From NCBI RefSeq assembly GCF_028275055.1, contig NZ_JAQCNJ010000060.1, forward strand, positions 1 through 64,000: DNA of 64,000 bases, given 5' to 3'. The DNA is from Haloplanus sp. (lineage in GTDB: Archaea > Halobacteriota > Halobacteria > Halobacteriales > Haloferacaceae). Positions 59,996 to 61,229 of this stretch are shown one piece after another (position 1 is the first letter of the stretch; each line of letters begins with the position of its first letter). The translations under genes and the position numbers were made by a program. The notes beneath the pieces were generated by a model. It was not told the DNA's origin. It made no database searches and saw only the letters and a program-made list of their open reading frames with translations.

Positions 59996-60622
59996 GTGCG
60001 AAACGTCACCGACCGTACACGGAACCCGTTCGGCATGCAACCACCCTGCGAGCGGTTCGTCCCCGGATACGGCGACGCAAACGCCCACTTCCACGTCGTC
60101 GGCGACCACCCTGGCGTCCACGGCGGGGCCGAGACGGGCGTTCCCTTCACCGACTGCGTCGTCGGCCGCCGGTTGCAGCGAGCGCTCGATGGCGCCGGGC
60201 TCCTTGAGACGACCGGCGACGCCCCCGCGGTCGACCTGACATACCTCTCCTACCTCCACACCTGTGTTCCCAATTGCGATCCGACAAAGGACGACTACGG
60301 TGCGATGGAACCGTTTTTCGACGCCGAACTCAGGGCCATCGCCGCACACGTTCTCCTCCCGGTCGGGGAGCGAGCGACCCGGCACGTTCTCGAAACGTAC
60401 ACGGCCCACGACCCGGCCGGTCTCGACTTCGAGAAGCTTCACGCCACGGAACTCCACGGAAGCGGGTGGCTCGTGGTCCCGATCCGTGACCCGGTGGACT
60501 GGACGGGTGCGGACATGGACCGGCTCGTCGACGCCCTCGATACCCTCCGGGACACCGACTACCGTCGCGAAAGCGACCTCGGGCGCTTTGTCGCCGGCAA
60601 CGAACCGTACTTCGTCCGGTAA
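59996..60622 (+). CDS. Uracil-DNA glycosylase family protein
   Basis: 208-aa protein of the UDG superfamily (family 4/5-like). Motif 1 region DANAHFHVVGDHPGVHGGAE with the nearby VPFTD, then TYLSYLHTCVPNCDPTKDDYG and a late LHATELHGSGWLVVPIRDP. Such enzymes remove uracil from DNA, though the exact family cannot be assigned without alignment. Cys in CVPNC is not clearly an iron-sulfur set. GTG start 59996; no better upstream. Confidence 0.8.
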   Translation: MRNVTDRTRNPFGMQPPCERFVPGYGDANAHFHVVGDHPGVHGGAETGVPFTDCVVGRRLQRALDGAGLLETTGDAPAVDLTYLSYLHTCVPNCDPTKDDYGAMEPFFDAELRAIAAHVLLPVGERATRHVLETYTAHDPAGLDFEKLHATELHGSGWLVVPIRDPVDWTGADMDRLVDALDTLRDTDYRRESDLGRFVAGNEPYFVR

Positions 60623-60737
60623 CCGACTCGCCATGGCTTACGGAAGATCGTCGCACACATGAGGCCTTGATTCGATATTTGTCGTCTATATTGAACCTAT
60701 CGACAGATTTTTTATCACAAGTGTAAACGTTACTGGT

Positions 60738-60880
60738 GACGCGGGCGGGTTCTGCCCGGCGCGTCATGGTACCGATACACATTGCGAGTCAGGTGCTCCT
60801 CGCAGTGGCTTGGTCAGTCGGGGACCACGACGCGTGGTCCCGTACGTTCTCCGTTCGGGGGACGCCTTCGGCGTCACCCG
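60738..60880 (+). ncRNA. Candidate structured RNA with three hairpins, upstream of rpoL
   Basis: An AT-rich block ends in ATTTTTTATCAC (about 60707-60718), a good TATA box. About 27 nt later, at 60738, starts hairpin 1: GACGCG (60738-60743) with CGCGTC (60760-60765). Hairpin 2: GGGACCAC (60821-60828) with GTGGTCCC (60834-60841). Hairpin 3: CGGG-G-GACGCC (60856-60866), loop TTC, GGCGTC-A-CCCG (60870-60880). rpoL has its own TATA box downstream. No family (SRP, RNase P, tRNA) recognised; a 47-codon frame from 60766 lacks coding character. Confidence 0.4.
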
Positions 60881-60947
60881 TTCATCGGAGCGTCCGTCGC
60901 TTCCCGTAGACGAAAGCTTGAAACGCGAACCGGCGGTACCGGAAGGT

Positions 60948-61229
60948 ATGGAACTGCGGGTCATCGAAAAGACCGACGAGGAACTTCGCATGGAGATCGC
61001 GGGCGAGGACCACACGTTCATGAACGTCCTCAAGGGTGCGTTGCTGAAAACGCCGGGCGTGGTGGCGGCGACGTACGATATGAACCCCGAGCAGTCCGGC
61101 GGCCAGACCGAACCCATCCTCTCGGTCAAGACCGAGTCCGGGACCGATCCCCTCGACGCCGTGGGTGACGCCTCCCGGCGCGTGCAGAACCTCTCCAAGG
61201 ACTTCACCGACGCGTTCCGAGCGGCTTAA
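60948..61229 (+). CDS. rpoL: DNA-directed RNA polymerase subunit L
   Basis: 93-aa archaeal RNA polymerase subunit (RPB11/alpha-like) that dimerises with subunit D to start assembly. [19 protein letters not shown], then the signature [20 protein letters not shown] and the C-terminal helix [19 protein letters not shown] 60948 is 28 nt after CTTGAAAC (60917-60924), hence leaderless; the open frame upstream is non-coding. Stop shared tail-to-tail with hisF (TTAA). Confidence 0.96.

Follow-up and report, generated by a model that had tools for sequence, protein, structure and literature searches.

What is encoded by the hairpin-rich stretch that lies in front of rpoL in Haloplanus sp., and how might its product act? 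In a sequence-only reading of the window, that is, of the whole 64,000 nucleotides of DNA that were analysed, a TATA box in an AT-rich block was seen to be followed by three strong hairpins, a separate promoter was assigned to rpoL, and the stretch was taken for an independent structured RNA of unknown class. We have compared the locus with those of related genomes, and we have considered both its status as a gene and the possible targets of its RNA.

Anatomy of the locus

The following features all lie on the + strand of the window. Fractions of invariant columns refer to 12 aligned Haloplanus genomes, and A6 is the alignment discussed in the next section.

59996..60622, + strand: uracil-DNA-glycosylase superfamily gene (PF03167, E 2.4e-10), which by synteny precedes the RNA in most of the family
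60687..60706, + strand: upstream promoter element ATATTG...ACAG including a BRE-like part, with the family form ~ATTGGC-N3-AACAAAG (upstream alignments)
60708..60731, + strand: TATA-like box TTTTTTA (60708-60714) in an AT-rich block, and a conserved block before the start (sequence; 13/24 columns invariant)
60733..60850, + strand: predicted mature RNA of ~115 nt (covariance-model match 60737-60852, E 4.6e-23; fold; both ends deduced from the positions of promoter and terminator-like hairpin)
60738..60765, + strand: SL1, the 5' hairpin, variable in sequence with pairing kept (helices 1 and 2 of A6)
60780..60807, + strand: SL2 hairpin, with loop 60789-60798 = TCAGGTGCTC, near-invariant GTRCTC (helix 3 of A6; genus alignment)
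60805..60819, + strand: conserved linker GTGGCTTGGTCAGTC, the first three bases of which also close SL2; proposed pairing segment (conservation; complement present in the Haloferax HVO_0416 3'-UTR)
60821..60841, + strand: SL3, terminator-like hairpin, then a T/C-containing tail (helix 4 of A6; T-rich tails in several other genera)
60849..60890, + strand: SL4, hairpin restricted to Haloplanus, behind the RNA and in front of the rpoL promoter (36/50 columns invariant)
60910..60926, + strand: separate rpoL promoter ACGAAAGCTTGAAAC (15/17 columns invariant)
60948..61229, + strand: rpoL, neighbour outside the RNA (PF13656, E 1.4e-16)

The TATA box and the separate rpoL promoter of the sequence-only reading are thus both found in blocks that are conserved within the genus. 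As to the three hairpins, SL1-SL3 indeed form the ~115-nt RNA and occur family-wide; however, the stretch holds four hairpins, and the fourth, SL4, was not seen among the compared sequences of other genera. In one Haloplanus genome (G002, locus L010) part of the 3' arm of SL4 seems to be duplicated. The glycosylase neighbour scores 31 bits, compared to NCBIfam family-4 cut-offs of 250 and 125, and is a divergent member of the superfamily.

The fold of 60733-60850 has an energy of -57.3 kcal/mol, with z = -2.44 relative to dinucleotide shuffles (a value reached by 3 of 200 shuffles), and for the longer segment 60730-60920 the value is z = -2.19. This thermodynamic signal is real but moderate, and comparative data are therefore needed to decide.

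Covariation and conservation

Two alignments were used to evaluate the structure. The first, A4, is a MAFFT alignment of 24 sequences with a structure written by the authors, and it served as seed for the covariance model R1. Here, 91.8% of the cells pair and 6 pairs are changed on both sides. None of 500 shuffles reached A4 in cells paired, two-sided cells or covariation, while 19 of 500 did so in pair count and 209 of 500 in further pair types; A4 beats all shuffles on three of the five measures, and not on further pair types. The second alignment, A6, contains 60 matches from 60 chosen loci (58 distinct rows) and was fitted to the model, a procedure that works in its favour; 92.9% of its cells are paired, and 21 of the 26 pairs are changed on both sides, amounting to 161 cells over the 58 distinct sequences. 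No measure was reached by any of 500 shuffles, and slid versions gave at most 10 two-sided pairs. Compensatory changes, the check that had been named for the stems at the outset, are thus abundant.

All three hairpins contribute to this result. In SL1, 98.2 and 93.0% of the cells are paired in helices 1 and 2, and 7 of the 10 pairs are changed on both sides; the corresponding values for SL2 are 97.6% and 5 of 7 pairs, and in SL3 all 9 pairs are changed on both sides. A pseudoknot between loop and linker (GACTG with CAGTC) was also considered. By inspection it is possible outside Haloplanus and broken by the Haloplanus loop TCAGG, and it was rejected.

The most conserved parts of the RNA are the SL2 loop and the linker behind SL2. 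Among the 12 Haloplanus genomes, 26/27 columns of SL2 and 12/12 of the linker are invariant, as are 18/40 in SL1 and 11/24 in SL3, while the spacer behind the upstream gene has 1/53 invariant columns and the spacer before the rpoL promoter 0/16. Between groups of genera, the length of the loop stem differs by one base.

When 60 relatives were searched at the nucleotide level, 28 genomes gave a match, and each of the 11 further Haloplanus genomes gave a strong one. Searching the genome collection with the core pattern returned 38 loci, of which 37 are haloarchaeal (Haloferax, Halobellus, Halogeometricum, Halonotius, Haloquadratum and others); the remaining one (L055, Armatimonadetes) was dropped as chance. 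With R1, at E up to 0.01, a match is found in 113 of the 170 genomes of the family, covering 21 of 28 genera. A second model, R2, matches 119 of 391 genomes of the class, 112 of them within the family; the seven matches elsewhere have E values of 0.0013-0.0076, which is near chance level for the cut-off. Of the weak matches outside the family from another class search, the seven that were inspected (L118-L124) have no convincing core. No convincing match was obtained in any other family of the class.

Strong model matches occur once per genome, which indicates a single-copy gene. R2 has no match in the genomes listed for g3, g5, g10, g17 and g20, and the RNA is therefore dispensable. What look like degenerate remnants, with a piece that resembles the loop (GGTGCTC or TGTCAG), can be seen in g20 (L168) and g17 (L170), which suggests decay or loss.

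A candidate target in Haloferax

We now turn to the question of what the RNA could pair with. A first clue was given by weak secondary matches of the model in Haloferax that lie antisense to mRNA and consist of the complement of the linker followed by that of the loop, the complement of the SL2 stem being missing. A pattern search for this bipartite complement in the 170 family genomes found exactly one place besides the RNA gene in 14 of the 15 Haloferax genomes. Only one further non-self match was obtained (G115), and the Haloferax genome G082 has the RNA and no matching site. The reversed control pattern gave 9 matches in the 170 genomes, that is, ca 0.05 per genome with a loose 16-base pattern.

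At all 14 sites, the distance from the stop codon of the preceding gene is 10-15 nt. This gene codes for a 58-residue protein, one copy of which (from G080) was identified as a zinc-finger protein of the HVO_0416 family (NF041910, E 1.9e-32). The site reads CUGACCAAGCCA(C), also written CTGACCAAGCCA(C), then a spacer of 0-2 nt and (G)AGCACC, and is complementary to the linker and then to the SL2 loop. The shared parts of both half-sites are invariant over the 14 sites, and the spacer is what varies. In G077 and G079 the first half-site lacks its last base and the second is longer by one, so that the total stays at 19 pairs.

For seven genome pairs, the calculated duplex energies range from -34.9 to -38.6 kcal/mol and the z values from -2.8 to -4.0. 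It should be noted, however, that the lowest of 300 shuffled-site energies equalled or passed the real value in 3 of the 7 pairs, and the duplex energy alone is therefore weak evidence. In the six cases tested, the site is predicted to be more open than its surroundings (0.51-0.59 compared to 0.37-0.39 unpaired).

According to the relevant passages of PMC6490895, the HVO_0416 transcript has no 5'-UTR, i.e. it is leaderless, and carries a Northern-confirmed 3'-UTR of >100 nt that 'must have an important function', while Table 2 of PMC6562870 gives a gain of biofilm formation upon deletion of HVO_0416. The long 3'-UTR of the candidate target had thus already been flagged as functional. We consider the HVO_0416 3'-UTR to be probably a true target in Haloferax. 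The site represents one evolutionary event common to one genus, and it was found post hoc; with no counterpart yet in Haloplanus, the mechanism there remains a matter of inference.

Other targets were also searched for. No bipartite site is present in Haloplanus, and no gene common to all 12 Haloplanus genomes was found with the linker complement, either exact or with one mismatch. At leaderless starts, the linker complement ATGACTGACCAAGC is present in 3 of 119 family genomes. Among the 29 matches listed for a nine-base core near start codons in 18 genomes, there is no recurring target gene, and the plasmid records contain no match to the 58-residue HVO_0416-family protein or to the RNA. Two side observations can be mentioned here. 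In three Haloplanus species (L144, L146, L149) proA opens with ATGACTGAGCAAGCCAC, a start-codon sequence that differs from the linker complement by a single mismatch, and in two Haloferax species (L125 in G079, L126 in G077) a probably leaderless gene begins ATGACTGACCACGCCAC, where 14 of 15 bases match the complement of the linker.

Promoter, neighbours and alternative explanations

The promoter region upstream of the TATA box is conserved well beyond the genus. An ATTGGC-like element is similar, and its spacing nearly fixed, in most of 51 aligned upstream regions across genera; among the 12 Haloplanus genomes, 7 of the 32 columns of 60676-60707 are invariant. The element is situated some 20 bases upstream of the TATA box and is near-palindromic in some species (TTGG-N5-CCAA). 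Its conservation suggests that transcription of the RNA may be regulated.

In a redundant set of 110 loci, 85 neighbouring ORFs cluster together as the glycosylase-superfamily gene immediately upstream of the RNA, and a second cluster of 79, mostly a DUF5793-type gene (Pfam names), precedes the glycosylase gene; the glycosylase genes given for H. volcanii in PMC9997560 are HVO_0231, HVO_1038, HVO_2792 and HVO_0444. Since the glycosylase gene is found upstream in most of the family, and rpoL follows the RNA in 12/12 Haloplanus genomes, the conserved stretch could be imagined to be a cis element, either the 5' leader or an attenuator of rpoL or the 3'-UTR of the glycosylase gene. We regard this as highly improbable. 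Both the RNA and rpoL have conserved promoters of their own; in Haloferax the RNA is followed by a convergent MBL-fold gene, in genus g4 (L174) the glycosylase gene stands directly before rpoL with the RNA absent, and in g14 the RNA is located at other genes. The RNA is thus not the rpoL leader, because rpoL has its own conserved promoter and is found elsewhere or without the RNA in other genera, and the cis element is refuted as a general explanation. A promoter that is conserved across genera while the neighbours change indicates instead a gene of its own. Taken with the compensatory changes, this bears out the independence claimed in the sequence-only reading, and we consider it virtually certain that the locus is a real, independent, structured RNA gene.

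What kind of RNA it is can be narrowed down further. A compact RNA of ~115 nt with several hairpins in an archaeon might be a divergent member of a known stable class, such as an H/ACA or C/D guide, SRP RNA or RNase P RNA, but neither the window nor 12 related loci give an Rfam match at the gathering score, guide-RNA and SRP RNA models included, and a permissive search (E up to 10) yields two noise matches only. One of these, to SNORD74, has an E value of 3.6 and 13.7 of 41 bits and is on the opposite strand. RNase P RNA (RF00373) is a separate gene in 4/4 genomes tested, in G000 at C60, the window being negative, and the complementarity of loop and linker to the 16S/23S loci is at shuffle level, with scores of 8.5-9.3 compared to shuffle means of 8.4-9.3, which speaks against a guide RNA. 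Membership in a known class is accordingly very hard to credit. Even less credence can be given to an encoded small protein. An ATG frame of 47 codons (60766-60909) can be read from the sequence through SL2, but the ATG is missing from the other 11 Haloplanus sequences, the stems change by compensation, and the length of the loop stem is not constant among genera. A more serious competitor is a protein-binding decoy or scaffold with CsrB- or 6S-like logic, in which loop and linker would be a protein recognition site and the complementarity to HVO_0416 would be secondary or accidental. It would explain that loop and linker are nearly invariant family-wide, yet have one mRNA target in one genus only; to our knowledge, however, there is no haloarchaeal protein of the CsrB- or 6S-partner kind, and the Haloferax site fits both elements, in the right order and with a spacer of 0-2 nt. 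We therefore find the decoy unlikely.

Proposed mechanism

The anatomy of a 5' hairpin, a hairpin with an invariant loop, an invariant linker and a terminator-like hairpin, together with the bipartite site in Haloferax, points to a trans-acting sRNA, and that the RNA acts by pairing in trans appears likely from these sequence features. The explanation that we favour as a whole, with a probability of roughly 60%, is that of a family sRNA that pairs with mRNA and has HVO_0416 as its target in Haloferax. According to this proposal, the haloarchaeal family to which Haloplanus and Haloferax belong has an intergenic, single-copy sRNA gene that would be transcribed from its own promoter to give an RNA of ~115 nt with three hairpins, with SL3 acting as the terminator. 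The working surface would be made up of the loop of SL2 (GGUGCUC) together with the linker next to it (GUGGCUUGGUCAGUC), through which the RNA would pair with mRNA. In Haloferax, linker and loop would pair with the 3'-UTR of the HVO_0416-family zinc-finger mRNA, skipping the SL2 stem, and binding would change the stability or the translation of this leaderless mRNA, in one direction or the other.

A more specific version, which we put forward only tentatively, is an intermolecular clamp, in which 6-7 nt of the SL2 loop and 12-13 nt of the linker directly behind its stem would pair with the adjacent half-sites in the 3'-UTR while the stem stays closed, and the target strand would cross it with 0-2 nt; in Haloferax, this clamp would control the leaderless HVO_0416 mRNA. 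If this is the case, the unexplained long 3'-UTR of HVO_0416 would acquire a function. With a candidate target at hand, the question of how sRNAs find their targets in haloarchaea, most of whose mRNAs are leaderless, can be put to a direct test in a genetically tractable organism.

Comparison with known sRNAs

Of the features expected for a trans-acting intergenic sRNA, the comparative evidence gives an own promoter, the terminator-like SL3, independence from the neighbours and a conserved structure; complementarity to a distant mRNA is found for the HVO_0416 3'-UTR in 14/15 Haloferax genomes, with none recurring in Haloplanus. Methanosarcina mazei sRNA162 and sRNA154 are trans-acting archaeal sRNAs, and two interaction regions have reportedly been mentioned for sRNA154. 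Their sites, as described in passages of PMC6560208, are at mRNA 5' ends, whereas the site proposed here is in a 3'-UTR.

A closer parallel is sRNA132 (HVO_1405s) of Haloferax volcanii, which passages of the same source (PMC6560208) describe as an intergenic haloarchaeal sRNA with its own promoter, like the RNA considered here. Its predicted sites are in ORFs or 3'-UTRs, and HVO_0416 mRNA belongs to its regulon, being lowered transiently by sRNA132 after phosphate starvation. In those passages, however, sRNA132 is reported from Haloferax only, with two stems, a 13-nt pyrimidine-rich linker and another location, whereas the present RNA is family-wide (21/28 genera), has three hairpins and a G/T-rich linker, and does not match the description of sRNA132. 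Homology between the two is not suggested.

Finally, we have considered whether the RNA is already on record. An oligonucleotide search of the literature gave no paper that is haloarchaeal by title among the 25 listed of 47 matches, and the RNA is not mentioned in the main-text passages on HVO_0416 and haloarchaeal sRNAs. Passages of PMC5892119 describe a 111-nt intergenic sRNA of H. volcanii, STRG.2577.4, which is the most highly expressed one (905,191 TPM); its size fits the present RNA, and identity is a lead that comes from comparing size alone. The H. volcanii sRNAs H225.2R, hts10 and htsf_359, listed in Tables 1 and 5 of PMC3956466, are likewise intergenic and widely conserved, being present in >10 haloarchaeal genomes, a likeness drawn from their description and not from coordinates. 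The Haloferax copy may already be catalogued, unnamed, in a list of H. volcanii sRNAs.
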